A stretch of DNA of 64,000 bases from the NCBI RefSeq assembly GCF_030908625.1, contig NZ_CP133133.1, forward strand, positions 1,364,001 through 1,428,000, written 5' to 3'. The notes beneath the pieces are model-generated. The model made no database searches. It was not told where the DNA came from and saw only the letters and a program-made list of their open reading frames with translations. Positions 4,847 to 25,281 of the stretch are shown here, in pieces (within the stretch, counting starts at the first letter, position 1; every line of letters begins with the position of its first letter). Source of the DNA: Paludicola sp. MB14-C6. Lineage in GTDB: Bacteria; Bacillota; Clostridia; Oscillospirales; Ruminococcaceae. A program made the position numbers and the translations under genes.

Positions 4847-5034
4847 GGTGGTACGGAATTTCCCCAACAAGTATTAGACGCACATACTATTACTAATAAG
4901 ATAAAAAAACAATATACGTATTAATTAATTTAATAGTATAATCGGATTTTTGAGAAAGTCCAAACAAAGTGCGGAAGCCTTTAGTGATAACATGTTATAA
5001 TAATATCCATCACAATAAAAGGAGACTTAAAACA

Positions 5035-5916
5035 ATGGACATCAAAGAAAATACATCGGAAACAACGCTATACGATTGGCTAGACAAATGGCTATTAGTA
5101 TATAGTAAACACAGGGTAAAGCAAGCTACTTTTGACTGTTATTCAGCTGCAATAGGGTGGGTAAAAGTATGTATTGAAAATAAACCGCTTAACTTAATAA
5201 CTGAGCTTGATATTCAATCTGGGTTAAATATACTAAGTGATCTTGGTTATTCAAAGTCTACTATAAAAAAAGCACAAATTGTTTTAAACCAAGCATTTAA
5301 TAAAGCAATTAGAAATTATCAGCTAACTCGAGTTACAGAAAACCCGGTTGTTGGTACATATATTCCTATTGAGGCTGGAGAAAAAGATGTTTTACCTTTA
5401 ACAAGAGAAGAACAATCAATTATTGAAATCGCTTGTTATGAAGTTTTACATGGATTGTTAATGCTGTTTTTATTATACACTGGCCTACGACGTTCTGAAT
5501 TGTGTAATTTAAAATGGTCCGATTATGATAAAAATAAAAGTTGCATTTATGTACGCAAAAGTAAAACAAAAAAAGGAATTCGAATGGTTCCCTTGCTTCC
5601 TCTTTGCGAGCAAATCATTATCACCCAACCTAAAATTAATGAGTATATTTTTAATTCAACAATAAAGCAGCCTATTACAGATAGCGTTCTTAAAAAAACA
5701 TATATACGAATAAGAAAGAAAACCGGCATTATGACTTTTACAAATCATGTATGCCGGCATTCATTTGCAACCAGATTATTAGAAAATGGTGCTGATCCAA
5801 AAGCTATTGCTGAAATATTAGGACATACAAATGTTTCATTTACCATGAATAGATATGCTGCACCAGACTATGATTATTACCGTAATCAGATAATGGTATT
5901 GAAAAATATTTTATGA
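5035..5916 (+). CDS. Tyrosine recombinase (phage-type integrase)
   Basis: 293 residues from the ATG at 5035 (AAAGGAGA 10 nt upstream); longer in-frame starts lack a ribosome site. It has an N-terminal SAM-like core-binding domain (about 1-110) and a C-terminal catalytic domain. Visible catalytic residues are Arg in TGLRRSEL, Lys in the beta-hairpin KTKKGIR, His-Arg in CRHSFATRL, His in LGHTNVS and Tyr in MNRYAAP. It carries out strand exchange between short sites by a covalent DNA-3'-phosphotyrosine. The extra IntI-specific insertion of integron integrases is not apparent. It points toward the cassette-like array starting near 6,790 and could be the integrase of the whole element. Confidence 0.88.
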   Translation: MDIKENTSETTLYDWLDKWLLVYSKHRVKQATFDCYSAAIGWVKVCIENKPLNLITELDIQSGLNILSDLGYSKSTIKKAQIVLNQAFNKAIRNYQLTRVTENPVVGTYIPIEAGEKDVLPLTREEQSIIEIACYEVLHGLLMLFLLYTGLRRSELCNLKWSDYDKNKSCIYVRKSKTKKGIRMVPLLPLCEQIIITQPKINEYIFNSTIKQPITDSVLKKTYIRIRKKTGIMTFTNHVCRHSFATRLLENGADPKAIAEILGHTNVSFTMNRYAAPDYDYYRNQIMVLKNIL

Positions 5917-6675: not shown

Positions 6676-6787
6676 TTAGGAATATCGCATGCGTAATTGT
6701 TCGTTAGGATTATGTTGCGTTATTTCACATTATCTATGTAATGAGCATCTACATCTTATGGACTATGGATTGATAGTTAGCTAAGCT

Positions 6788-6810
6788 CTACATTCGAAGT
6801 TATTTGAGCG
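6788..6810 (+). repeat. Cassette core repeat, site 0
   Basis: CTACATTCGAAGTTATTTGA, a divergent copy of the array core, about 20 bp from the 3' end of the GNAT gene. It marks the left edge of the array. Between 6676 and 6831 no gene is seen. Confidence 0.4.
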
Positions 6811-6831
6811 TACTTTCAATTAACATCTATT

Positions 6832-7326
6832 TTATAATCTCCACCAAATAGAGTCATTAAATCTATACCTTTCAAATCCATTACGCTCCAATATGCGTTG
6901 TGATGCATAACCATGGATATCCGTTTCTGCAATAATATGTTTTACTTCTTTCTGTGCAAGTCCCCATTTACACATTCCACAAACGCCCTCTGTCATATAT
7001 CCATTGTGCTCAAACTCATTACCAAGGCCATATCCTATCTCGATTTCCCCATTTCCATTTGGCAATCCTTTAAATGCAGCAGAGCCTACTGCGATTCTAT
7101 CAGACTTTCTTATCAATAGCCAAAATGCATTGTACAAACAACTCTCTGAATTATTTGAAATAACTCTAATCTGTTTATCCAAATATTCAAGAATAAATCC
7201 CTCTAACGCTTCACCCTTATATACACAATCCAATTCCTTTTCAAGCATATTAAGATTATCTTTTAATAATTTTAATCGTTCTAAAGAAAGTGGCACAAGC
7301 TCAAGTCTTTCTGTTTCCAGTACCAT
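6832..7326 (-). CDS. GNAT family N-acetyltransferase (RimJ/RimL-like)
   Basis: 164 residues from the ATG at 7326, directly behind GGGAGG; the longer frame upstream lacks support. The GNAT pattern is visible: ETERLELVPLS at the start, WLLIRKSDRIAVGSAAFKG, then EIEIGYGLGNEFEHNGYMTEGV (acetyl-CoA loop region) and ASQRILERNGFERYRF. It transfers an acetyl group from acetyl-CoA to an amine; the substrate is unknown. It is the first unit of the array and has its own leader containing palindrome arms. Confidence 0.8.
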   Translation of the reverse strand: MVLETERLELVPLSLERLKLLKDNLNMLEKELDCVYKGEALEGFILEYLDKQIRVISNNSESCLYNAFWLLIRKSDRIAVGSAAFKGLPNGNGEIEIGYGLGNEFEHNGYMTEGVCGMCKWGLAQKEVKHIIAETDIHGYASQRILERNGFERYRFNDSIWWRL

Positions 7327-7419
7327 AATTACCTCCCTTACTATTAGTCGCAATAGTTATTGATTTTTATTAATCATAAATACAAAAATCTTATTATTCG
7401 ATGTAATTGCTGTCTGTCT

Positions 7420-7440
7420 TAAACATAATGTGCAGTATGA
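7420..7440 (+). repeat. Cassette core repeat, site 1
   Basis: TAAACATAATGTGCAGTATG, 8 bp from the stop of the coiled-coil gene to its right. The first 11 bases match the consensus exactly; the rest has drifted. Confidence 0.6.
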
Positions 7441-8559
7441 AAGACAGTTCAATCCGTTATAGTTGCCTTAACAATTAAATCATTTAGTACTACTTTTTCA
7501 TTTTCTAAACTTTTGTCAGTAGCACTGAGTAAAGTGGTCAAGTGGCTGATGACATGCTCAATCTGGCTTTGGATATTCTGTACTTGCGTTTGGGATTGAT
7601 TAATTTTATTTAATACCGCCCAATCTGCCAACAAACCGTCAAAAAAATAGTCCGCAAAGCATAGAAATCCATCAATGCTAATCTGCATATCCGTGTGAAT
7701 CGTCACATCAGTTAGCTCGGTTTTAAAACGGCGCAACTGTACCTGCAAATACTCGACCTGTTGCTGTGCTTCATCCAGATGGCTGTGCTTTGCCATATCC
7801 GACAGCAGCCCGCCCCCCATCAAATCCAAAGCGCCCCAGTCTTCTGCACTGTCAAGGCTGGATAGAATACTATTGCTGGTCTCAAGCGCTGCCTGACCGG
7901 CTTCAAGCGCCTCACGGATTTCTTTAACCTGTTTCTCAAGGTAGGAGATACGTTCCTCAGCTCTAAGGATTTTCTCAGCAGCTTGAGTCCCGATGGATTT
8001 AATAGCCTTCAGCTTATCCATCATCGCTTGCGCGTATTGCTGCTCACATTCATGCAATTCACGCAGCTCTGCCTCGCAGAATTTAATATCTTCATTTACC
8101 GCAGAAAGTTCACGTGAAACGACATCATACTTAACGCTAGCAGCATAGGCTTCTTCACGCTCTATATCCAACTTTTCCTCTCTCTTGCCAATGACGTTAT
8201 AGAAGAAAGCGGTTAAACTATGACCTTCCAGACGGTCAACATCAACTTGCTCATCCAATTTGTCTTTTCTAAGGGCATCGGCTTTGATGTTCAACGTCTC
8301 ACGTTGAGTGTATAATTCCTTTAGTTTTGACTCATTGTGCTTTTTTTGTACAACTTGTCTTCGAAAAAACGATATTTTTTCATCATAATATGCCATAACA
8401 GGAACTCCTCTCAATTTTATACAACTAATTATTTCTCTTTCATAGCCTATATATGACTTTTTATTGTTAAGAGCGTTCAGCCGTCTATTTAATTAAAATC
8501 AACTTGCATGTCGAAATTAGAATTAAGAAAGCTATCTATTCACTTTAAACATAATAGGA
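7439..8559. repeat. Duplicated cassette unit, copy 1
   Basis: About 1.12 kb, nearly identical to 10740-11860. It contains the coiled-coil gene and its leader. Similarity stops at the core on both sides: within site 1/site 6 on the left and after TAAACATAATAGGA on the right. Confidence 0.85.
7449..8396 (-). CDS. Coiled-coil protein of unknown function, copy 1
   Basis: 315 residues from the ATG at 8396, 8 nt behind AGAGGAG; an in-frame TTG further out is less likely. Almost the whole chain is charged heptad-like helix (residues about 10-75, 95-185 and 195-230), with a less charged C-terminal part (ISIDGFLCFADYFFDGLLADWAVLNKI). No signal peptide, catalytic motif or known domain is seen. About 20 residues differ from the copy at 10750, with all positions in frame, so both copies look maintained. 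Its place among defence-type genes suggests, but does not show, a related role. Confidence 0.7.
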   Translation of the reverse strand: MAYYDEKISFFRRQVVQKKHNESKLKELYTQRETLNIKADALRKDKLDEQVDVDRLEGHSLTAFFYNVIGKREEKLDIEREEAYAASVKYDVVSRELSAVNEDIKFCEAELRELHECEQQYAQAMMDKLKAIKSIGTQAAEKILRAEERISYLEKQVKEIREALEAGQAALETSNSILSSLDSAEDWGALDLMGGGLLSDMAKHSHLDEAQQQVEYLQVQLRRFKTELTDVTIHTDMQISIDGFLCFADYFFDGLLADWAVLNKINQSQTQVQNIQSQIEHVISHLTTLLSATDKSLENEKVVLNDLIVKATITD

Positions 8560-8573
8560 AGTTCAGAACTTAC
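8415..8573. other. Leader/spacer with loose palindrome
   Basis: Spacer between two array genes. AACTT (8501-8505) is inverted as AAGTT (8559-8563), and ATGT (8508-8511) as ACAT (8549-8552). The region also serves as the upstream leader of the coiled-coil gene. Confidence 0.45.
8546..8565 (+). repeat. Cassette core repeat, site 2
   Basis: TAAACATAATAGGAAGTTCA, the best match to the consensus, 8 bp from the stop of the Abi-alpha-like gene. Confidence 0.65.
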
Positions 8574-9251
8574 TTAAAGCGTACACGCTTCATGGAAATT
8601 GTTACCTAAATGTGTTAAGTTAATAAAAGAGTAAATTTCCCCACCACCGATTGATCTCATTGGTGATATACATCCTATTCTGGCTAAGTCAATTAAAGCC
8701 ATTTCTATATCTTTGTTACTTAAGCGAGGATAATCAGTTTCACTTTTACCTTCAGTTATAACTTCCATATTATCCGGAAGCAAATAGGTTACAAGAAACT
8801 TATGCTGGTTTTCGTTAAAAGGGATGCTATATATTTTATCAATTATTTTCGCTTCTAAAGGAGAAAGCCGTTCAAGAATATCAATATAAACTCTTCTAAG
8901 TTCTATACCTTTGTTGCTTATAGCATTTACAAGGAGCTTTGCCCAAAGATCTTGTAGTTCATCGTCGTCTTCTAGTGAAGCTCCTTGTAGTAATGGGACT
9001 GCAAATTTTAACGGAATAGGATTAATTACTTCTGTTATACCGCATTTTTTCATGAACTCTGTCGCGCGACACATTAATCTAACTTGTCTTTCCCATCTTG
9101 CATATTTTAACTTATCTTCAAAAATACCGATTCCTTGTTCAAGGCTCCCTTTTATTAGAGGGGCAATAAAAGTTCCAACCTTGTCAGCAACGTCAATACC
9201 TTTTCCTATGGCTTTAGCAGTTTCTTCAATAGCCTTTGAATCTTCACTCAT
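8574..9251 (-). CDS. DUF4393 / Abi-alpha family protein
   Basis: 225 residues from the ATG at 9251, 6 nt behind GGGAGTG. An N-terminal helical part is rich in Ala and Gly (KAIEETAKAIGKGIDVADKV), then the family hallmark FAVPLLQGASLEDDDELQDLWAKLLVNAI, then a C-terminal winged-helix-like part. DUF4393 proteins are called Abi-alpha because a member causes abortive phage infection. A role in phage defence is inferred from the family and from the neighbouring cargo. No membrane segment is certain. Confidence 0.78.
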   Translation of the reverse strand: MSEDSKAIEETAKAIGKGIDVADKVGTFIAPLIKGSLEQGIGIFEDKLKYARWERQVRLMCRATEFMKKCGITEVINPIPLKFAVPLLQGASLEDDDELQDLWAKLLVNAISNKGIELRRVYIDILERLSPLEAKIIDKIYSIPFNENQHKFLVTYLLPDNMEVITEGKSETDYPRLSNKDIEMALIDLARIGCISPMRSIGGGEIYSFINLTHLGNNFHEACTL

Positions 9252-9363
9252 ACTAATCACTCCCAAAAAGTCAATCTAAAATTTAATAGAGGAATTCTCT
9301 ATCTTTATGAAGGATTGCTACTTGGGCAAGTTGCCCTTATTGCTACTATTCGCTCATCCAGTA

Positions 9364-9383
9364 TAAACATTAGACGAAATTCA
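9364..9383 (+). repeat. Cassette core repeat, site 3
   Basis: TAAACATTAGACGAAATTCA, 27 bp from the 3' end of the next gene. GGGCAAGTTGCCC, a 13-bp palindrome, lies in the same spacer (9324-9336). Confidence 0.5.
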
Positions 9384-9409
9384 CTCTGCCATAGCTATTG
9401 CCCATAATC

Positions 9410-9712
9410 TCACATATTACTAAAATCGGGAACGCCACCAAATCCGCAGCACAAAAACTGATTCATTGTTTTATCGTAGTATTCTGCCTTCCAGTAGTGA
9501 GGGTCGTTTACATTTCGGAATACTACTCCTTCAATACTTCTCTGAATGGGCGTCAAAAAAGGCTTTTCCAAAAAGAGCATAATACATCCCGCATAAGGCC
9601 AGTCGCCTTTGTAAGTTTCACATATACGATTCCCTGCATTCAATTCCAAAGTGAGTATTTCCTCTAACTTTCCAGTAAATGAGGAGATGATTTTTTCATC
9701 ATTATTAAGCAA
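9410..9712 (-). CDS. Hypothetical protein (small cassette-type)
   Basis: 100 residues. A TTG start at 9712 is supported by GGAGGT 7 nt upstream. The product is soluble, with LELNAGNRICETYKGDWPYAGCIMLFLEKPFLTP and then GVVFRNVNDPHYWKAEYYDKTMNQFLCCGF. This pattern looks like a conserved family of small proteins of unknown function. No catalytic motif is recognised. It forms a one-gene unit bounded by sites 3 and 4. Confidence 0.6.
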   Translation of the reverse strand: MLNNDEKIISSFTGKLEEILTLELNAGNRICETYKGDWPYAGCIMLFLEKPFLTPIQRSIEGVVFRNVNDPHYWKAEYYDKTMNQFLCCGFGGVPDFSNM

Positions 9713-9768
9713 AAGTATTACCTCCTCAAATACACTAAATAGGAATTTTCTTTAGTTGATCTCTGTTA

Positions 9769-9789
9769 TAAACATTAATGCGCAGTTCG
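9769..9789 (+). repeat. Cassette core repeat, site 4
   Basis: TAAACATTAATGCGCAGTTC, 45 bp from the 3' end of the next gene. Confidence 0.5.
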
Positions 9790-9834
9790 TCACTACAGCT
9801 AATACTCATATTCTCCACAATAATCAAAACTGTG

Positions 9835-10362
9835 TCAGTCAACCCGATATATTGTAAATGCTCTTGAAACTGCAATATGTGTCTTTACTTCCTTAACTAA
9901 CGGAACTTTACAGTTAAGAGAATACTTATTAACTGCATGAGTTATTTTCTCAATAATTTCCTGTGAAGTTGAATTTGCAATATCACTCAATGATTTAAAA
10001 CCGGATTTACAGTATAAAAACGCCCTTGTGCTTTTTACTCCCGGTAGTAAGTATAGTTCCTTGAAAGCAATAATTTCCTCATCTGTTAATGTTAATCCAT
10101 CAATCTCCTTAAGCTTTAAATTGTTGATATCATACATAGATAAAAAACATCTGAATAAGTTGATTTCAGTTAGGTTTATCAATCCCGATTGCAACATTAC
10201 TTCATCAGGTAGCTTCATACATTCTTCTTTTGTAAAGCAATTCTTGCTAATGCACAAATCTATCAGTTTATCCTTAATCAAAATAAGGGGATAGTATCTT
10301 TCTAAAACACAATCCCTATTAAGGAGTTCTTTTATAGCTTCAATTCTATAATTAACTTTCAT
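9835..10362 (-). CDS. Hypothetical protein with helix-hairpin-helix-like motif
   Basis: 175 residues, no signal or membrane segment. Around residues 105-140, LPGVKSTRAFLYCKSGFKSLSDIANSTSQEIIEKI resembles a helix-hairpin-helix of the kind that contacts DNA backbones. The rest is helical and unrecognised. It is a one-gene unit of the array. DNA binding is possible but unproven. Confidence 0.5.
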   Translation of the reverse strand: MKVNYRIEAIKELLNRDCVLERYYPLILIKDKLIDLCISKNCFTKEECMKLPDEVMLQSGLINLTEINLFRCFLSMYDINNLKLKEIDGLTLTDEEIIAFKELYLLPGVKSTRAFLYCKSGFKSLSDIANSTSQEIIEKITHAVNKYSLNCKVPLVKEVKTHIAVSRAFTIYRVD

Positions 10363-10447
10363 TATGCTCGTCTCCGTATATTTGATTTGGTATTCTGAAC
10401 AAAATCTAAATAATCTACTATTAAACTTTAAACATTGAATGAACTTA

Positions 10448-10520
10448 CTCTAACTTCGCATTATTAGCTTAATATGAAGCTTTACATGCTTCAAGTTATT
10501 GCTATAATGCGTAACTGCAT
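10448..10520 (+). repeat. Cassette core repeat, site 5, with the clearest palindrome
   Basis: TAACTTCGCATTATTAGC (10451-10468) is inverted, imperfectly, as GCTATAATGCGTAACT (10501-10516). TGAAGC and GCTTCA form a perfect inner hairpin between them. The outer right arm abuts the stop of the next gene. Confidence 0.6.
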
Positions 10521-10702
10521 TACTTATTTCGCAAGCCAGGCTCAAATTCATTTTTGCACCATTTAACAAAATTTCCAGAATGGAGCAAATATGTTTTTGC
10601 CGTATTCTCTTTCAAATAGCCATTCCGCTCAGCTTCCAAAACTTCTTGCTCATATTGTTCAAATAGTTTTTGAATTGTAATTGTAGTAAAATTTGTTTTC
10701 AT
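10520..10702 (-). CDS. Small protein resembling a recombinase core-binding fragment
   Basis: 60 residues, TTGGAGA before the ATG. TITIQKLFEQYEQEVLEAERNGYLKENTAKTYLLHSGNFVKWC looks like the SAM-like N-terminal DNA-binding fold of tyrosine recombinases, but no catalytic domain follows. It is a complete one-gene unit between sites 5 and 6, so truncation by a late event is not obvious. It could be a DNA-binding accessory protein or a remnant. Confidence 0.45.
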   Translation of the reverse strand: MKTNFTTITIQKLFEQYEQEVLEAERNGYLKENTAKTYLLHSGNFVKWCKNEFEPGLRNK

Positions 10703-10721
10703 TAATATTTCTCCAACCTAA

Positions 10722-10740
10722 TAAACATAATGGAAAGTAG
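10722..10740 (+). repeat. Cassette core repeat, site 6
   Basis: TAAACATAATGGAAAGTAG, 9 bp from the stop of the second coiled-coil gene; the counterpart of site 1. Confidence 0.6.
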
Positions 10741-11860
10741 AAAGACAGTTCAATCCGTTATAGTTGCCTTAACAATGAAATCATTTAGTACTACTTTTTC
10801 ATTTTCTAAACTTTTGTCAGTATCACTGAGTAAAGTGGTCAAGTGGCTGATGACATGCTCAATCTGGCTTTGGATATTCTGTACTTGCGTTTGGGATTGA
10901 TTAATTTTATTTAATACCGCCCAATCTGCAAACAAACCATCAAAAAAATAGTCCGCAAAGCATAGGAATCCATCAATGCTAATCTGCATATCCGTGTGAA
11001 TCGTCACATCAGTTAGCTCGGTTGTAAAACGGCGCAACTGTACCTGCAAATACTCAACCTGTTCCTGTGCTTCATCCAGATGGCTGTGCTTTGCCATATC
11101 CGACAGCAACCCTCCCCCCATCAAATCCCAAGTGCCCCAGCCTTCTGCACTGTCAAGGCTAGATAGAATACTATTGCTGGTCTTAAGCGCTGCCTGACCG
11201 GCTCCAAGCGCCTCTCGGATTTCTTTAACCTGTTTCTCAAGGTAGGAGATACGTTCTTCATCTCTAAGGATTTTCTCAGCAGCTTGAGTCCCCATGGATT
11301 TAATAGCCTTCAGCTTATCCATCATCGCTTGCGCATATTGCTGCTCACATTCATGCAATTCACGCAGCTCTGCCTCGCAGTATTTAATATCTTCCTCTAC
11401 CGCTGAAAGTTCACGTGTAACCACATCATACTTAACGCTAGCAGCATAGGCTTCTTCACGCTCTATATCCAACTTTTCCTCTCTCTTGCCAATGACGTTA
11501 TAGAAGAAAGCGGTTAAACTATGACCTTCCAGACGTTCAACATCGACTTGCTCATCCAATTTGTCTTTTCTAAGGGCATCGACTTTGATGTTCAACGTCT
11601 CACGTTGAGTGTATAATTCCTTTAGTTTTGACTCATTGTGCTTTTTTTGTACAACTTGTCTTCGAAAAAACGATATTTTTTCATCATAATATGCCATAAC
11701 AGGAACTCCTCTCAATTTTATACAACTAATTATTTCTCTTTCATAGCCTATATATGACTTTTTATTGTTAAGAGCGTTCAGCCGTCTATTTAATTAAAAT
11801 CAACTTGCATGACGAGATTAGAATTAAGAAAGCTATCTATTCACTTTAAACATAATAGGA
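10740..11860. repeat. Duplicated cassette unit, copy 2
   Basis: Nearly identical to 7439-8559, including about 160 bp of leader. The two copies are separated by four other array genes, so this is not a simple tandem duplication. Confidence 0.85.
10750..11697 (-). CDS. Coiled-coil protein of unknown function, copy 2
   Basis: 315 residues with the same start context as copy 1 (AGAGGAG, ATG at 11697). Differences from copy 1 are scattered substitutions such as ADA/VDA, NED/EED, RAE/RDE and LLAD/LFAD, without frameshifts. The protein has long charged coiled-coil stretches and no known domain. Two intact diverging copies in one array suggest either recent copying of a mobile unit or use as paired variants. 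Confidence 0.7.
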   Translation of the reverse strand: MAYYDEKISFFRRQVVQKKHNESKLKELYTQRETLNIKVDALRKDKLDEQVDVERLEGHSLTAFFYNVIGKREEKLDIEREEAYAASVKYDVVTRELSAVEEDIKYCEAELRELHECEQQYAQAMMDKLKAIKSMGTQAAEKILRDEERISYLEKQVKEIREALGAGQAALKTSNSILSSLDSAEGWGTWDLMGGGLLSDMAKHSHLDEAQEQVEYLQVQLRRFTTELTDVTIHTDMQISIDGFLCFADYFFDGLFADWAVLNKINQSQTQVQNIQSQIEHVISHLTTLLSDTDKSLENEKVVLNDFIVKATITD

Positions 11861-11956
11861 TACTCAATAAAACAATGCCAAGATCTGGTTGGGCTCTTAA
11901 AAAACAAATTCTCATCAACAACGATACAATCTATTTCATTCGTTCTATTAAAAATA
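11716..11956. other. Leader of copy 2 and spacer before the OLD-type gene
   Basis: Its first part equals the leader of copy 1, up to 11860. The remaining ~95 bp (11861-11956) is unique. A TT-rich stretch near 11890 shows no clear gene. Confidence 0.4.
11847..11866 (+). repeat. Cassette core repeat, site 7
   Basis: TAAACATAATAGGATACTCA; identical to site 2 up to AGGA, then different. The duplicated unit ends here. Confidence 0.6.
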
Positions 11957-14047
11957 TCAGCACATTTTTTCGAATAGACTGATGATTTTATTAAATTCAG
12001 CATCATCTTCACTTATCACTCTATTTGTACCTTTGAGGACCTCCTTTTTAACCATTGTGGCAAGGCGAACCTTCCACCCTTTATCAAGCGATATACCATG
12101 AGTTTGAGCAAACGTTTCAATTTGATCGCAGACTGGCGTATCATCGGTCACTACATCATCAAACTCTTCGTCAACTTCTTCTGGCCGTGGTAGAAATCTT
12201 GCAATTATACTCGCAATTTTTGATTTAGGGAAAAGATCTTCTATTTCCCCGTTCGGTAAAGCAGTATAATCTGAAACTGATATAATTTTGTCCAAATCAG
12301 CGGCGTAAAAGTCTGACTTTAGTTCTGTGGCCATTTTCACTCCTGGCTTGTCACCATCTAATAGCACTGGTGGTTTAATTTCACTGACTCCAGACAGTAT
12401 TGCAGACGTCGCTTTAACACCCTTAACACCGCCCGTTGGAATAAACACTATTTCTTTCAGGGGCGAAATCTTTCCTTTCGAAATTAATAAATTTTTAAGT
12501 GCGGACAGATAGATTTGGTCTGACTCTCCCTCCACTAAGATGGGATTACAATTTATAAGAAGCGTATCTGATACTGACAGGCCCAGCGCTGCATGGGCTG
12601 GATATATTGATTGTGGCTGATTTTTTCCTCTCAATCGTTCCGTTGCTCTCAAATCTGGACTTACGACTGTTTTTCCACCTTCATCAATATATACAGATCT
12701 CACGCGCTCAAGATGATTCGAATCAACCATAAAGGGAGAATGTGTAGTGTACAACATTTGATTATTGATAGCAAGATTTTCAAAAAACATAAATAAGTCC
12801 TTTTGAGCTAATGGATGGAGGGTAACGCCAGGTTCATCCAAGAGTAGTATCGCATTTTGATGATGAAGTTCACTTTCCACCAAGAAAACCAGATAAAAGC
12901 TAAAAAACCACTGTAGGCCCGTACTCCTTGATTCAAGTTCAATACGTTCTGGCCTTACTGAATCAGAAACCCAAATTCTAAAGAAATTTCCGTCAGCCTG
13001 AAACTCAAATGTATAATTTCCTTGTTTCCACCATTCGTTAAAGGATTTAGTAAAACCTGAAGAGGCTGATGCCAAAAGAATTTCACGTTCTTTTTTCTTA
13101 TCCGAAATAATTGCAATCTGTTCTTGTGAAAGATTACCATTATCCTCTGTTCCTAGGTTTGTTATTTCTCTTGGATCAAGCTGAACGAACTTAAATAGAG
13201 TCTTTAATGTACGCGCCTTAGCAGCCTCTTTAACCCCCAAATCAATTTTTCCTATATTCTGTAATACTTGAGGGAGGTATATTTGAGAGTCAAGATTTCC
13301 GTAATTGGAATAATACACATACTTAGGCATATGTATATATACATATGCAACAACATCTTTTGTTTCAGCTAGCGATGGCTTTTTACTTTCAGATGCAATT
13401 GCACTAAACTTTTGAATCGCATCAGACATAACTACACATGCTATAGAAGACTTGACATCTTCTTCAAACTTATCCAATTCAGCATAAGCAGCTACTAACG
13501 AAGCAGTTGCAATATCTGTGTTATTGAGAATTGTTAATGTCGACTGAATAATGTCAAGAGCCTTTTCTCTCCTATCACTTTCGGCTTTACCAGATGTCTC
13601 CTTGGCTGCTTCCAAGGTGACTTTGCATGCCTCTAATATTTCTTTTCCTTTATCAATTTCTGATGATCTACGATCTACTGCAAATGGAAATTCACAATAC
13701 AGATTCCCATCAAAGTCTTTTGAAACAATAACTTCACAAAGTTCTTCCTCATTATATCTTGAAATTTTTGCAAGATCTTTCTGCTCATTTTGCAAAAGAG
13801 AATATTTTGCGTAAATAAATATTGGCTTATGAGTGGCAGATCGATATGTATGATATCTATCCCTTGGTAAATCTGCTTTTAAATCAATTTCGCCCTCATC
13901 TGCAGGATTTAATTTCCATAACGGAAGTAAAATGTTCGTTTTCCCTGATTCGTTGGTGCCAATCAAAGCAGTAATTTGCTCGGCATCAACCCAACCACTA
14001 TCATGCACAGACCTAAATTCAGTAACACGAAAACTTTTTAAGATCAT
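11957..14047 (-). CDS. OLD-family ATPase with TOPRIM nuclease domain
   Basis: 696 residues, AAAGGAG 9 nt before the ATG. Walker A is GTNESGKT (30-37). A coiled region follows, then an ABC-type signature area (ELESRSTGLQWFFSFYLVF), Walker B ILLLDEPGVTLHP and the His switch TTHSPFMVD. The C-terminal TOPRIM part has Glu in ILVEGESDQIYL and the acidic pair in LLDGDKPG. This order is that of overcoming-lysogenization-defect (OLD) endonucleases, many of which act in phage defence (for example GajA). No GajB-type helicase is next to it. The next gene upstream, a membrane protein with no core repeat in between, shares its unit and may be a partner. Confidence 0.82.
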   Translation of the reverse strand: MILKSFRVTEFRSVHDSGWVDAEQITALIGTNESGKTNILLPLWKLNPADEGEIDLKADLPRDRYHTYRSATHKPIFIYAKYSLLQNEQKDLAKISRYNEEELCEVIVSKDFDGNLYCEFPFAVDRRSSEIDKGKEILEACKVTLEAAKETSGKAESDRREKALDIIQSTLTILNNTDIATASLVAAYAELDKFEEDVKSSIACVVMSDAIQKFSAIASESKKPSLAETKDVVAYVYIHMPKYVYYSNYGNLDSQIYLPQVLQNIGKIDLGVKEAAKARTLKTLFKFVQLDPREITNLGTEDNGNLSQEQIAIISDKKKEREILLASASSGFTKSFNEWWKQGNYTFEFQADGNFFRIWVSDSVRPERIELESRSTGLQWFFSFYLVFLVESELHHQNAILLLDEPGVTLHPLAQKDLFMFFENLAINNQMLYTTHSPFMVDSNHLERVRSVYIDEGGKTVVSPDLRATERLRGKNQPQSIYPAHAALGLSVSDTLLINCNPILVEGESDQIYLSALKNLLISKGKISPLKEIVFIPTGGVKGVKATSAILSGVSEIKPPVLLDGDKPGVKMATELKSDFYAADLDKIISVSDYTALPNGEIEDLFPKSKIASIIARFLPRPEEVDEEFDDVVTDDTPVCDQIETFAQTHGISLDKGWKVRLATMVKKEVLKGTNRVISEDDAEFNKIISLFEKMC

Positions 14048-14131
14048 TTTCCATTTCTCCTTTATTGAAATTGTTCTACTTGCGATAATTGTTATGACTT
14101 GCTTTTCATTGTAATGTAATCAAATACTGTT

Positions 14132-14878
14132 TTAATTACGCTGTAAAAATGGGCTATTTTTATATCTAAGAACTTTTGGAAGTTTCCTTTTAGGGCGTAC
14201 GAATAATTTTGAAAAGATATAATATATAGCAACTATTGTAAATATTTTAATTAATAATTCAATCGGGCTATTCAAGTTATATTTATAAAAATTTATTAAT
14301 AAGTAAATAATTGTTATAGATGTAGCAGTCAATAATGAAATCACCTGTTTATAAAAGATTGTTCTATTTGTCAAATTTTGAATTTGTAGTTCTTTTTCAA
14401 AACCTATAAAATTTCCACTAATTATCGGAATATCTTTGCTGCTATGCAGAATATTAAAGCATAATCCATCTTTCTTATTTAGGTGATCAAATAATATGTA
14501 AGCACTTTTTTTATCTTCAGATATATTAATTTGAAAGTTACAATCTTCATTACTAATTTTTAAAATATCTGAACATAAGAGCAAAGAGCCTTTTCCCACC
14601 TGCACTTTGAGTAAGTTTGAATTGATAAAATCTTCTTTTCTAATTGCGTCACTTCCACTATTCCATAATGCTATAGACGTCAAGTATAGTTGGTTAATAG
14701 GAGTATTTTTATATTTTACTTCAATATCATTAAATGCATTTATATCATCGTATGAAAATACTTTATTGTTTATAAACTGTCCATCAATTTGCTTTTTAAA
14801 TTTATATTTTTCGGAAAATATCCATGTGATTATTATGGATAATATTATTGATAATACTGAGGACAAAACTGAATCCAT
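14132..14878 (-). CDS. Membrane protein of unknown function paired with the OLD-type gene
   Basis: 248 residues: one N-terminal membrane helix (about 4-21), a soluble domain of about 150 residues (YLTSIALWNSGSDAIRKEDF), and two C-terminal helices (about 181-198 and 207-224). The soluble part resembles domains seen in putative membrane effectors of defence systems, where a sensor triggers membrane damage; this is an inference from shape only. It is transcribed just ahead of the OLD-type gene with an 84-bp gap and no core repeat, so the two travel as one unit. Confidence 0.55.
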   Translation of the reverse strand: MDSVLSSVLSIILSIIITWIFSEKYKFKKQIDGQFINNKVFSYDDINAFNDIEVKYKNTPINQLYLTSIALWNSGSDAIRKEDFINSNLLKVQVGKGSLLLCSDILKISNEDCNFQINISEDKKSAYILFDHLNKKDGLCFNILHSSKDIPIISGNFIGFEKELQIQNLTNRTIFYKQVISLLTATSITIIYLLINFYKYNLNSPIELLIKIFTIVAIYYIFSKLFVRPKRKLPKVLRYKNSPFLQRN

Positions 14879-14952
14879 TTTTATATAACATCTCCTTGAA
14901 CTATTACTTTATCAAACTGCTCATTATTGCTAATATTAACTATTGCAATATA

Positions 14953-14973
14953 TAAACATAATGGGAAGGTCAA
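14953..14973 (+). repeat. Cassette core repeat, site 8
   Basis: TAAACATAATGGGAAGGTCA, 10 bp from the stop of the HD gene. TATTGC (14925-14930) pairs with GCAATA (14945-14950) in the same spacer. Confidence 0.65.
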
Positions 14974-14983
14974 TACATTCCCT

Positions 14984-16039
14984 CTAAAGAGAGATGGCAA
15001 AAACCTTCTTGTTTTTTTGATGTGAAGTGTTCACTTTCACGGCAACCCATGTTTCCAAGTCTGTAAGGTCGTAATGGTCAGTATCATCTACTTCCAACTC
15101 TATCCTGAATCCATTTGTTATGGATTCAAAGCAAATATCATTTAATGATATTTGCCTCTTTAGTGGTTCCAGTGTGTCTGCAATTGCAAGGATAAAGCAT
15201 AGAATATTTTCTTTTGATATTCGACCTTCGCATGTGTGCTTTTTTATCTGATTTTGAGTATCATATCGATCAACATATTCATTAAACGATGTATTCCAAA
15301 CGTTGTGGACCATTATAGCGTCAGCGGCTTTGGCGTAAGCGTCATAATGCTTATTGGATAAATGTAGTGTTCTATCACTGCATTCATCTTTTATAAGGAA
15401 ACTCTCACGGCAGTCCGTAGTCCATGTCCGTCTCTTCCAAGATATTTCAAATTGTCTTCTCAACTTGTCATAAAGAAGAAGGCCTCCAATAATCCCATGG
15501 TCTATACAGCCTACTCTTCCTTGATAGCACTGAGCCCTTCCTCTTAGATAGAGATCAATCTCTTTTCTGGAAAAGGTCTTAAACTCCCGTTCATGCAGAT
15601 ACTTGATATCCGCAACTTCTTGAATTGCATCGAGACCATCAGACTGTAACATACGAAGCTGCTCACAAGTGCTACTTTTCTCAAAGGCGTAACCAATGTC
15701 ATGATATAAACATGTCAAAAACCAATAATACTTCAGATTCATGTTCCTTTCATCACTAGGTTCGAGTTTAATTCCAAAGCTTTCGAATAATTTTACTCCG
15801 AGAAGAAATGTCGAAATAATATGTGTAGCTCGCGATTTTATGTATCGGCAATTGTCTTCAAGGCGCTGATCTTTAAGACACTGGCTTTTCCCTGCATACT
15901 CAAAGTATGATGTAATAAAAGCAAATGCGCTATCATTATTATTCCAAGTACCTTTTATATCGAAGTTCGGATTGGGGTAATATGACCATCTGTTCTTGTC
16001 AGATGATAATTCCGTGTATAGGCTTGTTAACGTTTGCAC
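14984..16039 (-). CDS. HD-domain-like hydrolase
   Basis: 351 residues if started at the GTG at 16039, which lies 7 nt behind AGGAGG; the ATG two codons earlier is too close to the ribosome site. Metal-binding HD features are visible: RATHIISTFLLGVKLF, then YYWFLTCLYHDIGYAFE (His-Asp), IDHGIIGGLLLYDKL, and AIMVHNVWN with ILAIADTLEP near the end. HD proteins are metal-dependent phosphohydrolases; nucleotide or signalling-molecule substrates are common. A defence role is suggested only by the surroundings. Confidence 0.7.
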   Translation of the reverse strand: MQTLTSLYTELSSDKNRWSYYPNPNFDIKGTWNNNDSAFAFITSYFEYAGKSQCLKDQRLEDNCRYIKSRATHIISTFLLGVKLFESFGIKLEPSDERNMNLKYYWFLTCLYHDIGYAFEKSSTCEQLRMLQSDGLDAIQEVADIKYLHEREFKTFSRKEIDLYLRGRAQCYQGRVGCIDHGIIGGLLLYDKLRRQFEISWKRRTWTTDCRESFLIKDECSDRTLHLSNKHYDAYAKAADAIMVHNVWNTSFNEYVDRYDTQNQIKKHTCEGRISKENILCFILAIADTLEPLKRQISLNDICFESITNGFRIELEVDDTDHYDLTDLETWVAVKVNTSHQKNKKVFAISL

Positions 16040-16094
16040 ATACATTCCTCCTTAATTACGAACTTAAAAACAACATGATAAATGCTTGTCCATT

Positions 16095-16115
16095 TAAACA
16101 TTAAGCGAAGTTAAA
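16095..16115 (+). repeat. Cassette core repeat, site 9
   Basis: TAAACATTAAGCGAAGTTAA, 50 bp from the 3' end of the next gene. AAGTT (16108-16112) has an inverted partner AACTT at 16062-16066. Confidence 0.6.
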
Positions 16116-16164
16116 GCTATATAATTGGTATTAATATCTGCAATAACACTCAGAATGTGTATGT

Positions 16165-18663
16165 TTATCTCGGTTTGTTTTCCTTCCAATATTTTTCAAA
16201 AGAATCGATGTATTTTCTTAAATCTTCTATACTTGGGATATTTCCATTGATTGCACGTGCTTGATCATGGCACCAAGCAGAACACTCTGTCATTCCACTT
16301 TCCAATTCACAATACAATTCTTGCGTAAAAGGTGCTTTTTTGAGTCGTTGTGTTTGCACACAAGGATTATATCTTTGTATTGCATCATTTAATAAAATTT
16401 CTTCGACGGCTCTTTCCCAGCTTTCTCTTAAAAGTTCACACCATTCCTTTGCTTTATAATAATACATATCCATATCGCCTTTATTGAATACCGCAACTAT
16501 ACCCTGTAAGTCGTTTTTTAGTTTTCCTGTTCTATCCTTAACAGTCATACCTTGCCAAGGTATAATAGGTGATATATCTCCCGGTTCATTAAAAAAATTT
16601 CGAATTGTTACCTGATTAAAATTTATATTTTTTCTCTCTGATTCCGTTTTAATCTCCATAAAAAATGTTATTTCATGTGTAAAAATTACAACTTGTCGGA
16701 GCATAGCTTCTTCTATAAGCCTATTCACAATAAGGCTTCTTCTCTTGTGGTCCAAGGAGCACACTGGATCATCTAATACAATACCTGTATTTCTCATATC
16801 CATATGTACTTCTGTAAGAAAACATGCAATAGAAATAGCCCTTTGTTCTCCTTCACTTAAAACTTTTCCAGGTGCCACTCCTTTAATCTGCAGTTTTTTT
16901 AATGTATGACCGCTACTTCCTCGAGAAGTTATTTCTACATCAAAATCTGCGTTAAGTTTTTTGCACTCTTCCTTGAATTCTTTTAGATAATCCTCGGTTA
17001 CATACTTTTCAAATAATTCTTTCTGTTTAATCGTAATATTGTTGGTCTTTATTTTACTATTCTCAGCAGTCATATCCCACTTTAATTGTTCTAAATATTT
17101 ACTTACAATTGGCAAGAGTTCAGTTACCTTGATTTTATCTATGTATTCATTTTCTATGTTTTGACATTCCGAAATACGCTTATTTATACTGTCTTTGTTG
17201 AGATCTCTCTTCTTATCCTCAATTTTTTTGATGAGATCTTGAATATTTATTTTTGGAAGTGCGACTACACTAATAGCACTTTCGCTTTCAATATCCTTTA
17301 TAATTGCATTTTTTATTTGATTTGCAGTCTTAAAAGCTACAGAAATTTGTTCCTCTTCATCTCTATAATTTTCCAACAGCCATTGCTCCTGAACGGATGA
17401 TTCTACCAGAAATGAGAGTTCCAGATTGTCAAGTCCTTCTCTCGAAAGACGAATTGCTTCCTGCGCAGTTTTCAAATTACTTTCCGCATCACTCTCTAAG
17501 TATTTCCAATATTTGAAAATCAAATTTTTCTCTTCTATTTCGTGACCACATAAAGGACAGATGTTATGCTTGGAAATAAGATCATAATATTTTTTTGCAG
17601 AACTTATAAACTCTTTCCATTCTTGTGAACCAATAAGTTCAACGTCATCTTTTTCAAATAACGTCGTCCCTACGGTATCATGTAATACTCTGCATTTTTG
17701 TAAAAATATGATCTGTTGATTATAAATATCAATATTATCTTTTGATACAGCCGCCGCAAATAAATTGTATTTCTTTATCGCACTTTCTAAAACAATAACA
17801 ACTTTATCAATCAGCTCTACTTGTTTATTTATATTCAATGAAATAAGATTTGCTTTTTCGCTCTTGATCTTCTCAACGAATACTTCTTCATCTTTTGAAA
17901 TAGTAAAACTTTTTCTGATTTCATCTATATTTGAATTTGCTGAAAGAGCTTTCATCTGAATTAAAGCTTTTCCCTCGTTGGGGAAGTACTTCAACGTCGG
18001 ATTTTCTAATTTAACAGATTTTCTCTCATTATTCAGTTTATCTTGAATCGCTAAGCAACCAGACAAAAATAGATCGAAGAACGACAATTCGCTTGGCGCA
18101 AAATCTATTGTTGATTCTCGATTCATGTCATCAGATGCACTTTTTGAGTCAAAACTTCTTATTGTCATAAAAGGGTATTTCTCTTTTTCTTCTGGATATT
18201 TATACTCCTTCGGAATCCCATCTATACAAAATTGAAAGACTGCTGATATGTCATCTGGTTTATCTAAATAGACATTTGAAAGGATTTCTTGGTCACCTCT
18301 CGATACAAACGCGTTGTTTATTAGTCTTGTATAGCCGGATTTTCCACTTCCATTTTCTCCATAGATTATGGTTAATCCGTCTGAAACGTATAATTCAACA
18401 CCAGATTTCAATCTGTTGACCCCATGTAAATCTTTAACCCCTTGCCACTTTACGACAGGATAGGCATCAGTCTCAAACTTGTATAATTGTATATCATCAC
18501 CAAAGTATTTTCCTATACTTAATGAATTCTCCACTTTGAAAACGTTATATATTTCATTAAGCTCAACCTCTGTCACATGCTTCTTCTCAATTATCAAATG
18601 TCCTAACTTCTGTTGCCACTTAGGTAAAGTTGCTACCCATTTTAATATATCTTCTGTAATCAA
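16165..18663 (-). CDS. SMC-like AAA ATPase with zinc-hook-like motif (RloC/PrrC-like)
   Basis: 832 residues with a TTG start 7 nt behind GGAGG. After a ~95-residue N-terminal part comes Walker A GENGSGKS (102-109). Long coiled-coil arms flank ICPLCGHEIE, a CxxC hook like that of Rad50 and RloC. Then come the signature LSEGEQRAI, Walker B GIVLDDPVCSLDHKRR and the switch His FTHEITFF. This head-arm-hook layout occurs in RloC/PrrC-type anticodon nucleases and other AAA_13 proteins linked to phage defence. The C-terminal ~150 residues do not show an anticodon-nuclease motif that can be confirmed by eye. Confidence 0.72.
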   Translation of the reverse strand: MITEDILKWVATLPKWQQKLGHLIIEKKHVTEVELNEIYNVFKVENSLSIGKYFGDDIQLYKFETDAYPVVKWQGVKDLHGVNRLKSGVELYVSDGLTIIYGENGSGKSGYTRLINNAFVSRGDQEILSNVYLDKPDDISAVFQFCIDGIPKEYKYPEEKEKYPFMTIRSFDSKSASDDMNRESTIDFAPSELSFFDLFLSGCLAIQDKLNNERKSVKLENPTLKYFPNEGKALIQMKALSANSNIDEIRKSFTISKDEEVFVEKIKSEKANLISLNINKQVELIDKVVIVLESAIKKYNLFAAAVSKDNIDIYNQQIIFLQKCRVLHDTVGTTLFEKDDVELIGSQEWKEFISSAKKYYDLISKHNICPLCGHEIEEKNLIFKYWKYLESDAESNLKTAQEAIRLSREGLDNLELSFLVESSVQEQWLLENYRDEEEQISVAFKTANQIKNAIIKDIESESAISVVALPKINIQDLIKKIEDKKRDLNKDSINKRISECQNIENEYIDKIKVTELLPIVSKYLEQLKWDMTAENSKIKTNNITIKQKELFEKYVTEDYLKEFKEECKKLNADFDVEITSRGSSGHTLKKLQIKGVAPGKVLSEGEQRAISIACFLTEVHMDMRNTGIVLDDPVCSLDHKRRSLIVNRLIEEAMLRQVVIFTHEITFFMEIKTESERKNINFNQVTIRNFFNEPGDISPIIPWQGMTVKDRTGKLKNDLQGIVAVFNKGDMDMYYYKAKEWCELLRESWERAVEEILLNDAIQRYNPCVQTQRLKKAPFTQELYCELESGMTECSAWCHDQARAINGNIPSIEDLRKYIDSFEKYWKENKPR

Positions 18664-18720
18664 ATTCCTGCCTCCAATCGATTAAAGCACTATATTAACT
18701 ATTACTTGTACGATGAACCC

Positions 18721-18780
18721 TGAATTTCGTCTAATTGCTATTGTATGAACTTACTCCAACTTCGCATTATTCGCCTAATG
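18721..18780 (-). repeat. Inverted core arms, site 10 (right end of array)
   Basis: TGAATTTCGTCTAATTGC is the complement of the site 3 core, and CCAACTTCGCATTATTCGCC matches the left arm of site 5. A matching right arm is missing, so the array seems to stop here. Confidence 0.5.
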
Positions 18781-18819
18781 GATAGTGGGGTATATAAAAT
18801 TACCCTCTTCGTCATTATA

Positions 18820-18940
18820 CAACATTATCCATTTGCATACAATATACATTTCCATATTTATAGGTTCTTTTTGTATTGTATTAGTGCTTTCAAGCTATTA
18901 TTGGATATAGCAAAACTCACTCTCTTTACTTGAGAGTGAG
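18820..18940. repeat. Direct repeat flanking the repair module, left copy
   Basis: About 120 bp closely matching 24675-24789, including AACATTATCCATTTGCATAC and the hairpin ACTCACTCTC/GAGAGTGAGT, which can act as terminator of the ImmA gene. The two copies bracket the module in the same orientation. Confidence 0.8.
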
Positions 18941-18945
18941 TTTAT

Positions 18946-19452
18946 TTATTTTCCTAAAAATCTACTTGAAATATTCTTAGGTATATTAAATTTATGACCT
19001 TTTTGATTAAGGGAGTGGAGCTTAAACGAAAGCAAATCATCCGGTACTTCTAACAGTTGAGCAATGTTATTGTAGTCCATACCTTCATATGCAAGGTTAA
19101 TGACATCGTTATCATCTATTAGCAGCTCTGCGGCGAAGTAGTTTGCTTGGTACTCGGGTTTAGAAGTCATATCGTATAACTGAAAATCTTTCATAGGAGA
19201 TACTTTTGCAAAGGTTTGGTGAAGCCTATCATGGCCTAACTCATGAGCAATAACAAGTCGTTGTTCTTGTTCTGATAAGTTATCATTTAAGATGATATGA
19301 CGTTCTCTATTCATCACACAATAGAAGCCCTTAAGGCTATTGAATGGACGATACCCAACGAAGATATTCAATGCTTCAGTTAACTCAAACGGATCTCTTG
19401 TCTTATATTGCTTTATCAGTTGATCTACGATATCAGTTATATATTGGCTCAC
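18946..19452 (-). CDS. ImmA/IrrE-family metallopeptidase
   Basis: 168 residues from a GTG preceded by GAGGGGTGA. The zinc motif is in VIAHELGHDRLH, with Glu further on in QANYFAAELLI. ImmA/IrrE peptidases cleave a partner XRE repressor after DNA damage or other signals. The XRE repressor gene lies immediately upstream in the same direction, as in ImmR-ImmA of ICEBs1. It probably relieves repression of the polymerase gene across the intergenic region. Confidence 0.88.
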   Translation of the reverse strand: MSQYITDIVDQLIKQYKTRDPFELTEALNIFVGYRPFNSLKGFYCVMNRERHIILNDNLSEQEQRLVIAHELGHDRLHQTFAKVSPMKDFQLYDMTSKPEYQANYFAAELLIDDNDVINLAYEGMDYNNIAQLLEVPDDLLSFKLHSLNQKGHKFNIPKNISSRFLGK

Positions 19453-19483: not shown

Positions 19484-19876
19484 TTATTTACTTGCGTATT
19501 TTTTAGCACGCTCTTTTGATTGAAAATAGATATCAGTAATAGCTTTGAAAAATAAGTCTCTATCTTCTTCATCTAATTCGCCACCTGCAAACAGCCCGCT
19601 TGTTTCGGCTATAATTGCATTGGCTTTATTTTTGCCACTCGTTCCGTATTTCTCAGTAGCTTCTTTTACAAACTCATCCTGTTCTGACATTAAGTATGTA
19701 TTTGACACCTGGAATATTTCACAAATCTTATTTGTAATTTGAGCAGTTTGAGGGTAACGTTCTCCTGCTTCATAGTATTGTACTGTTCTAGTTGTCACAC
19801 CCAATGCTTTTGCTAGTTCCGTTTGTAACATTTTAGCACTCTTTCTTAACTGTTTTAATTTTTCTGAAAACATCAT
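19484..19876 (-). CDS. XRE-family transcriptional repressor
   Basis: 130 residues, AAGGAG 8 nt before the ATG. The N-terminal helix-turn-helix is clear (LKQLRKSAKMLQTELAKALGVTTRTVQYYEAGERYPQ). The C-terminal part (EEDRDLFFKAITDIYFQSKERAKKYA) is helical and could be the ImmA target. It diverges from the polymerase gene; GTTCGTT-type motifs between them are the likely operators. Probably represses its own and the polymerase promoter, and by motif sharing also ku-lig. Confidence 0.87.
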   Translation of the reverse strand: MMFSEKLKQLRKSAKMLQTELAKALGVTTRTVQYYEAGERYPQTAQITNKICEIFQVSNTYLMSEQDEFVKEATEKYGTSGKNKANAIIAETSGLFAGGELDEEDRDLFFKAITDIYFQSKERAKKYASK

Positions 19877-19922: not shown

Positions 19923-20003
19923 AACGAACGAATATTCGTATATAATTCATAATACACTATAATATGAATTTGTGTTCGTTATTATTATACTTGTGTTCGT
20001 TTA
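19923..20003. promoter_or_regulatory. Divergent control region with repressor-like operators
   Basis: AACGAACGAATATTCGT (19923-19939) contains the palindrome ACGAATATTCGT. TTGTGTTCGTTA (19970-19981) and TTGTGTTCGTTT (19991-20002) are direct repeats 21 bp apart, about two helical turns. TATAAT at 19958-19963 could be the polymerase -10. Related GTTCGTT motifs precede ku. Confidence 0.65.
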
Positions 20004-20023
20004 ATTTGTCAAGGAGTGTTCTG

Positions 20024-21468: not shown

Positions 21469-21483
21469 ATTGACAATCCTCCT

Positions 21484-22665: not shown

Positions 22666-22759
22666 GATAACACCTTCGTTTATAATATGTTTTTATTATA
22701 ACATTATTTGTAAATATTTGCAATTGAAAGTAAATATATGATTTAAAAAGACGATAAGG

Positions 22760-24504: not shown

Positions 24505-24606
24505 CTAATCACCTCATAATTATTGTTTCAACAATTGTATTTATCATACTGTTATGATAGAACTTTATCCAAATCATTATGTCAATATTTTATTATCCAT
24601 GTGCAG

Positions 24607-24664: not shown

Positions 24665-24674
24665 CTTTCCATTT

Positions 24675-24789: not shown

Positions 24790-24808
24790 TGAGTTTGCCT
24801 AGAGATTT

Positions 24809-25150: not shown

Positions 25151-25190
25151 ATTCCGTTTCCTCCAATGATGTCATTTTGAATAAAATAAA

Positions 25191-25275: not shown

Positions 25276-25281
25276 CAATAC

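Follow-up and report, generated by a model that had tools for sequence, protein, structure and literature searches.

What gathers a row of unrelated genes, most of them standing singly, between copies of one short sequence? The question is raised by a 64,000-nucleotide stretch of the Paludicola sp. MB14-C6 chromosome (the window; bases 1,364,001-1,428,000 of a genome forming a single contig of 2,937,905 bases), part of which (array A; Table 1) carries minus-strand genes separated by a recurrent core sequence. A sequence-only reading of the window had taken this region for a site-specific cassette system for defence genes. Its observation is partly confirmed below and its interpretation partly supported. 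In the best reading, array A probably has at least two sister cassette arrays (B and C) in the same Bacillota chromosome.

The core is concentrated in these arrays. When up to three mismatches are allowed, it has five matches in the window (0.32 expected; none of 100 shuffles reaches five). Genome-wide, 10 of the 17 matches fall inside the three arrays, which make up about 1.2% of the 2.94-Mb genome (five in array A; three in array B, ~2.474-2.490 Mb; two in array C, ~1.895-1.901 Mb). The seven matches outside the arrays, versus nine for a reversed-pattern control, are at chance level, which rules out the random genome-wide occurrence that the sequence-only reading had named as speaking against its proposal. 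Because the search pattern was derived from array A, the independent evidence consists of the array B and C matches and the background only. With a looser consensus and inspection by eye, nine plus-strand cores are recognisable in array A (7420-16112), together with one degenerate copy at its left end (~6790-6801, by eye), so the earlier count of at least ten was slightly high. Its spacing of 8-100 bp from core to the 3' end of the minus-strand gene on the right describes the array well: eight of the nine cores lie 10-92 bp from this end, the exception being the weak core at 10429, which precedes an open reading frame (ORF) of ~60 aa. A lone core-like site also occurs outside the arrays, between AAA-type ATPase and Nudix-like genes (names assigned by eye; locus L003, 7405-7432).

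In gene orientation, the commonest form of the site is AACTTCGCATTATGTTTA. The common box is AACTTCGCATTAT, followed by either GTTTA (giving the core as first described) or AGCAATAA. A position model of this box was trained on 22 direct boxes only, leaving the inverted boxes untrained. Nine inverted boxes with a score of at least 12 are found in the 34.7 kb of the arrays (four in A, five in B and none in C), and the same model finds five boxes, both strands combined, in 123.8 kb of this genome used as control. The overall enrichment (28 versus 5 boxes) is inflated because the direct boxes went into the model. Facing box pairs within 70 bp number nine in the arrays, representing seven distinct places (two in A and five in B); the controls have two such entries, representing one palindromic place.

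The arrays contain 32 non-overlapping ORFs of at least 85 aa (A, 10; B, 15; C, 7), all of which are directed away from the leader described below. One unit of array A holds two genes without a core in between (14132-14878 and 11957-14047). Three units are present twice. A coiled-coil protein unit occurs at two places within array A (96.8% identity over 1140 bp, with homology ending at the core), while a glyoxalase unit (97.2% over 505 bp) and a unit encoding a 91-aa protein (97.1% over 415 bp) are common to B and C. In all three cases the neighbourhoods differ and homology ends at the site on both sides; the glyoxalase and 91-aa units are adjacent in C and lie ~3.5 kb apart, in reverse order, in B. 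Besides a GNAT gene, array B also has a 139-bp piece from the front of this gene, interrupted after ...GCAACT, where it continues into CATTATGTTAA. Because three units are duplicated at ~97% identity in differing neighbourhoods, with homology ending at the site, the units are likely to have moved independently, most simply by site-specific recombination. The recurrence of units in differing arrays and orders, the homology ends and the common direction of all 32 ORFs support the cassette-type organization proposed earlier.

Alternatively, these loci could be defence islands of the ordinary kind, rearranged through homologous recombination, with the core as a conserved intergenic element for regulation or RNA processing. 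The core is indeed located between co-directional genes, array A lies within an island and, as described below, a fourth platform heads a defence operon without sites. However, ordinary homologous recombination would have very little to act on in a divergent core of 18 bp, the homology of the three shared units ends at the site at both ends, and the core is at chance level elsewhere in the genome. This explanation is considered very unlikely.

Further evidence for a cassette system comes from the segment at which each array starts. Arrays A, B and C are all downstream of a copied platform comprising a helix-turn-helix (HTH) regulator, an ImmA/IrrE peptidase and a leader with a promoter-like sequence. 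Platform A is 93.4% identical to platform B over 2501 bp, ending directly after the box, immediately beyond GGCGAATAATGCGAAGTT, and 92.7% identical to platform C over 1081 bp. The divergent Y-family polymerase gene has 94-95% identical copies at B and at the fourth platform, D, and none at C. The leader contains a terminator-like hairpin, the sequence TTGTAT-17-TATAAT, the palindrome GGGTAATTTTATATACCC and, in A and B, the box. The promoter-like sequence is conserved in leaders A to D, and the palindrome is identical in A, B and D; the palindrome of leader C differs at two bases. Because the -35 hexamer is weak and TTGTAT-17-TATAAT has no match among the sites listed by a promoter scan, the leader promoter is a reading rather than a result.

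Platform D (0.708-0.710 Mb; L167/L168, G000:C1:707948-710422 and below) is 93.9% identical to A over 2478 bp, with homology ending 26 nt short of the end of leader A and so excluding the box. The ORFs downstream of it in the leader direction include RADAR-like (RdrB, E-value: 1.6e-30) and type I restriction genes, and no box with a score of at least 11.5 is found between these genes. A leader can therefore head defence genes without sites. In A, B and D the occurrence of sites parallels that of the leader box (both present in A and B, both absent in D), array C being contrary. In addition, a mini-array (E) at ~2.4555 Mb (L170, 5480-6890) begins in a leader-like way and contains a hairpin site together with an APH-like gene. 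A fragment of the array B GNAT gene described above is also found in E (96.5% identity over 288 bp); by eye, the copy in E appears to be cut by an IS3-like element.

The ends of the duplicated units indicate where recombination may occur. The coiled-coil copies share CCTATTATGTTTAAAG at their upstream end and diverge at CTTTC ahead of the downstream box. These ends and the truncated GNAT gene place the break at about AACT^TCGC. The ends of the glyoxalase unit agree with this point within one or two bases, and the 91-aa unit departs from it by two bases at its 5' end. If the AACT^TCGC rule holds, the larger part of the core would be carried upstream in each unit. The earlier assignment of the site to the upstream end of each unit is favoured by the coiled-coil unit, which shares the upstream core and ends before the downstream core, and is at odds with the 3' end of the 91-aa unit (see below).

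In plan, the arrays resemble integrons, both sedentary chromosomal integrons and clusters of attC sites lacking integrases (CALIN), in having mostly single co-directional genes behind a promoter-like leader, a common recombination site, mobile units and mixed adaptive and defence cargo. The integron-like movement of units is represented here by three shared units breaking at sites, in one genome only. The locus could accordingly be read as a true integron remnant of the CALIN type, with divergent attC sites and an IntI integrase that is lost or located elsewhere. The layout, co-direction, promoter-like leader and cargo fit this explanation, as do five sites with the attC plan R''-L''-L'-R' (by eye) and two near-identical tyrosine recombinases, L006 and L009, which are the closest in the genome to the integron-integrase model (161 and 148.5 bits). 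However, none of the six scanned tyrosine recombinases reaches the cut-off of this model (265 bits; best 161). The consensus of attC boxes is RYYYAAC ... GTTRRRY, whereas AACTTCGCATTAT has AAC at its outer rather than inner end (by eye). By most resolved breakpoints the box lies at the upstream end of the units, in contrast to integron cassettes, and, whereas attI lies beside the integrase gene, array A has a single tyrosine recombinase gene nearby, 12.8 kb away from the leader box.

Folding likewise differs from the integron pattern. The hairpin site at 10451-10516 folds far better than shuffled sequences (z -4.26), but the spacers 8501-8563 (z +0.61) and 16062-16112 (z -0.27), which had also been called palindromic, do not, and only two of eight folded array A sites beat shuffles. 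The palindromic spacers of the sequence-only reading are thus genuine at one of these places and not general. In a second folding set (A, B and leader sites, two of them repeating array A sites), five of nine fold better than shuffles. Because few sites beat shuffles, a mechanism requiring single-stranded hairpins everywhere is disfavoured. An integron remnant is regarded as quite unlikely. The IntegronFinder 2.0 paper mentions for Firmicutes one complete integron (Limnochorda pilosa) and a few CALIN (PMC9024848), and a review names Firmicutes among the phyla with integrons (PMC8618304).

A second known system to be considered is the dif (pdif) module of Acinetobacter plasmids, by analogy with which the arrays would be Xer-dependent modules acted on by a host Xer recombinase. 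Like the arrays, Acinetobacter dif modules are bounded by short Xer-type sites, are not known to have a dedicated recombinase alongside and hold accessory and resistance genes. The array site can be written in two ways, either as arm-6 bp-arm with the conserved arm on the right (by eye) or as an Xer-like arm, six bases and a weak arm. The core resembles the Xer half-sites of E. coli and B. subtilis dif, and the host has a XerC/D-like protein (227.6 bits for XerC, where the equivalog cut-off is 335; 92 bits for integron integrase). However, array cores are direct repeats in a single orientation per array, whereas dif modules need inverse site orientation; a report on pdif sites gives their form as 28 bp (11-6-11) and describes the dif module as flanked by inverted repeats (PMC6449649). 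The array sites differ further in that the right arm is hardly conserved, and the arrays in being chromosomal, with a dedicated head. No 11-6-11 dif-like site above chance was found in the genome with three patterns. A system of this kind is judged unlikely. The array system departs from integrons in four tests and from dif modules in both tests that could be made. The sites match neither attC nor dif modules.

Tyrosine recombinases (PF00589) occur at seven loci in the genome, six of which encode the proteins scanned above; the seventh is a fragment with stops. The earlier statement that no IntI is present holds by the curated cut-off, but omitted the tyrosine recombinase (4969-5916) and the serine resolvase (6097-6660) at the left end of array A. 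The former scores 61 bits for integron integrase and is more likely to belong to a surrounding island because array A is bracketed by tRNA-Lys (25915-25990) on one side and, ~70 kb away, by a perfect 49-bp copy of the tRNA-Lys 3' end on the other (repeat copies at window 25912-25960 and G000:C1:1320070-1320118; L171, 6070-6118). Array A thus looks like part of an integrated island of ~70 kb, of which this recombinase is probably the integrase. Seven other genomes of the genus match window 21300-28100 at the DNA level only from tRNA-Lys onwards (position 25,911 and beyond), which is the pattern to be expected were the island absent from them. A ~270-bp repeat (about 80% identity) is found at five places, four of them beside tRNA genes, and is probably the end of related integrated elements (window 25257-25529; L167, 6999-7268; L168, 4512-4717; L169, 6804-7067; L170, 9979-10241).

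Relatives of this integrase at an E-value of 1e-40 or below occur in four other genomes (394 of the order, own included) and in none of the viral contigs; a 42%-identical relative adjoins ParA-like and ParB-like genes (named by eye). As a cassette-specific enzyme the integrase was rejected, the four loci of its relatives (37-42% identical) holding one box in 69.8 kb. The resolvase was also rejected: by eye, a palindrome (TTTTAGGA...TCCTAAAA) unlike the core precedes its own gene, and the two small serine recombinases of the genome sit by array A and ~10 kb upstream of platform B, with none at C. The C-terminal ends of L006 (1150-2064) and L009 (1441-2289) look disrupted, and L009 adjoins an apparent IS91-type transposase (both by eye). 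A small ORF at window 10559-10708, between two sites, resembles by eye a tyrosine recombinase N-terminal domain, without a Pfam match. The cassette recombinase may, tentatively, be the host Xer-like protein. An unrecognised enzyme, or one that the genome no longer encodes, is a weaker candidate, the island integrase is a doubtful one, and the L006/L009 pair and a serine recombinase are equally improbable.

The cargo of array A is of the kinds first described: GNAT, coiled-coil (twice), Abi_alpha, weak HHH-like, OLD/AAA_15-TOPRIM, weak HD and AAA_13. The Pfam scan took in all 32 array ORFs, directly or through a near-identical copy, and PADLOC covered 19 of them. Defence families are matched by 10 of the 32. 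In array A these are the AAA_13 protein (PDC-S06), the OLD/AriA-like protein and Abi_alpha (PDC-S47); in array B, two GmrSD-domain proteins (the first also HEC-06/Orf5-like), a SIR2/ThsA-like protein, LmuB and LmuC; and in array C, bSEFIR and a protein with an AbiJ domain (no PADLOC match at 1e-8). The remaining cargo includes acetyltransferases, a glyoxalase, methyltransferases, an aminoglycoside adenylyltransferase family protein, a peptide deformylase and unknowns. Defence genes are therefore present as claimed, but with 10 of 32 genes matching, "mostly defence" is too strong. The coiled-coil family is common (2935 proteins at an E-value of 1e-10 or below). For two proteins of this genome, the nearest named relatives come from Clostridia. 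The peptide deformylase gene of array C (L002, 12141-12559) apparently lacks an in-frame front part and has a stop codon upstream.

Table 1. Features of array A, its left flank and its platform (positions in the window).
Feature	Position	Strand	Evidence or remark
Tyrosine recombinase, 315 aa, phage/Xer type	4969..5916	+	PF00589 3e-33
Small serine recombinase, resolvase type, 187 aa	6097..6660	+	PF00239 3e-43
Array A left (3') end	6721..6801	-	degenerate core ~6790-6801 (by eye); inverted terminal box 6721-6733, score 12.8
GNAT acetyltransferase cassette gene	6832..7353	-	PF13302 1e-16
Core site TAAACATAATGTGCAGTA	7420..7437	+	core match
Coiled-coil protein cassette gene, copy 1	7449..8414	-	unit repeated at 10750-11715
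Core site TAAACATAATAGGAAGTT	8546..8563	+	core match
Abi_alpha family cassette gene	8574..9266	-	PF14337 9e-23; PDC-S47 7e-10
Core site TAAACATTAGACGAAATT	9364..9381	+	looser consensus / by eye
Cassette gene, 100 aa, no family	9410..9712	-	Pfam scan
Core site TAAACATTAATGCGCAGTT, one extra base	9770..9787	+	by eye
Cassette gene, 175 aa, weak HHH-like	9835..10362	-	DUF4332 0.004, below cut-off
Weak core copy adjoining hairpin site	10429..10446	+	looser consensus / by eye
Full hairpin (type I) site, two inverted boxes	10452..10516	-	folding z -4.3
Core site TAAACATAATGGAAAGTA	10722..10739	+	core match
Coiled-coil protein cassette gene, copy 2	10750..11715	-	duplicate of 7449-8414
Core site TAAACATAATAGGATACT	11847..11864	+	by eye
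OLD/AriA-like ATPase with TOPRIM, cassette gene	11957..14047	-	PF13175 1e-24; Old 6.5e-25; AriA 1.5e-24
Cassette gene, 248 aa, no family above cut-off	14132..14878	-	Pfam scan
Core site TAAACATAATGGGAAGGT, inverted partner box 14915-14927	14953..14970	+	core match; box model
Cassette gene, weak HD domain	14984..16045	-	PF01966 0.0075, below cut-off
Core site TAAACATTAAGCGAAGTT	16095..16112	+	core match
AAA_13/SMC-like ATPase cassette gene	16165..18663	-	PF13166 2e-16; PDC-S06 1e-151
Leader-end box (attI-like) CACTATCCATTA-GGCGAA-TAATGCGAAGTT	18758..18787	-	A/B homology ends exactly here; lost in platform D
Promoter-like TTGTAT-17-TATAAT (18842-18814, weak -35) and palindrome GGGTAATTTTATATACCC (18805-18788)	18788..18842	-	
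Terminator-like hairpin after immA	18913..18943	-	terminator scan reported + strand
ImmA/IrrE (M78) peptidase, platform gene	18946..19452	-	PF06114 2e-16
HTH_3 regulator, platform gene	19484..19876	-	PF01381 2e-9
Divergent Y-family DNA polymerase, platform gene	19964..21259	+	PF00817 3e-42

Other genes adjoin the platforms. Ku and ATP-dependent ligase genes, 92% identical between the two loci, lie near platforms A and B (window 22760-24504; L039, 281-2010), and at window 24670-24790 a leader-like copy (84%) precedes Ku. Platform B is closely preceded by two CRISPR-like repeat arrays that flank a 1235-aa protein without a Pfam match (L039, 4037-4742, 4793-8500 and 8491-9271).

The system was also sought in other genomes and elements. 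The core was matched in 10 of 99 related genomes, equal to the reversed control (10 of 99). The platform genes themselves are widespread in Clostridia: among the best 80 of 211 ImmA loci, a Y-family polymerase match is present in 35 and an HTH match in 57. These modules have the same three genes in the same layout at many loci; unlike the platform of arrays A to C, they are followed by no box array among the loci examined. Box density in the 80 loci is 0.45 per 10 kb, like that of the genome's own control DNA (0.40), compared to 9.0, 7.2 and 8.7 in A, B and C, and from this similarity no such array appears to follow them. A 12-mer test on the ImmA loci, which had no positive control, detected no such row, nor did an intergenic-pair test, which is weak (A 3, B 15, C 1; relatives 0-3). 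The highest relative in the latter is due to GC-rich repeats in a Monoglobus locus (L091); a palindrome, GGGCGGATAATATCCGCCC, unlike the core, is repeated between genes there near the ImmA locus (3534, 16322 and others).

ImmA-plus-leader DNA gave only two short matches, inside immA, in 393 other genomes; this is not a strong negative because two candidates were scored per genome and the genome's own platforms C and D were missed. The 91-aa cassette protein has 26 relatives in the protein collection and none in 393 other genomes of the order, in plasmids or in viral contigs. Against plasmids, array DNA gave nothing but short gene-level matches (a Pusillibacter region has one box in 24 kb). Four site or leader patterns had no match in viral contigs, where one 17-mer pattern had three matches with one box each. 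As far as these searches reach, assembled genomes contain such a system rarely, or it has gone unrecognised in them. No description of such arrays in Bacillota was found in the titles and abstract openings of open-access papers, a scope that excludes subscription papers and preprints.

Several of these results weigh against a cassette system. No second genome with the system was found by the core, ImmA-leader, 91-aa protein and ImmA-locus box-density searches. The duplicated units are known within one genome only, so the movement may have taken place long ago in a system that is now dead. None of the recombinases is associated with every array. The box is lost from leader C, yet array C follows with sites, and the scan for facing box pairs within 70 bp found none in this array. 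Hairpins are not general in array A, as the folding of its sites indicates, and among the five sites sharing the long hairpin sequence (A, one; B, three; E, one) only two fold better than shuffles. Finally, judged by the 3' end of the 91-aa unit, whose two copies also share GCTGATTATGTTTA, the break lies ~14 bp from the position indicated by the coiled-coil unit. Either two following units began alike or the crossover rule is inexact.

With these points taken into account, a cassette system remains the probable reading, and its operation can be modelled in the following way. Each array would start at a copied platform (HTH regulator, ImmA/IrrE peptidase and leader), with a recombination box in leaders A and B. 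Behind it would stand mostly single-gene units, in one direction and separated by the common site, at which they would be moved by site-specific recombination. The probable agent would be a tyrosine recombinase that works in trans and has double-stranded DNA as its substrate. Crossover near AACT^TCGC would leave most of the core at the upstream end of the unit, the reverse of an integron cassette. The leader promoter would drive the nearest units, such that position would set expression.

More tentatively, the arrays may represent a third kind of gene-cassette capture, independent of IntI and classical dif modules, in which promoterless genes for defence and resistance, each with an upstream box, are collected in Bacillota behind copies of an HTH-ImmA platform and its promoter-box leader; stress may be the condition under which the regulator pair turns on expression or capture. 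In Bacillota, complete integrons are a great rarity, with one case given in the IntegronFinder 2.0 paper (PMC9024848). If the proposal is correct, it raises the question of the responsible recombinase, and the site and leader would be a marker for finding new defence genes. A cassette system of the Bacillota's own, with defence genes as cargo, would explain the gene-by-gene build-up of defence islands in Clostridia.

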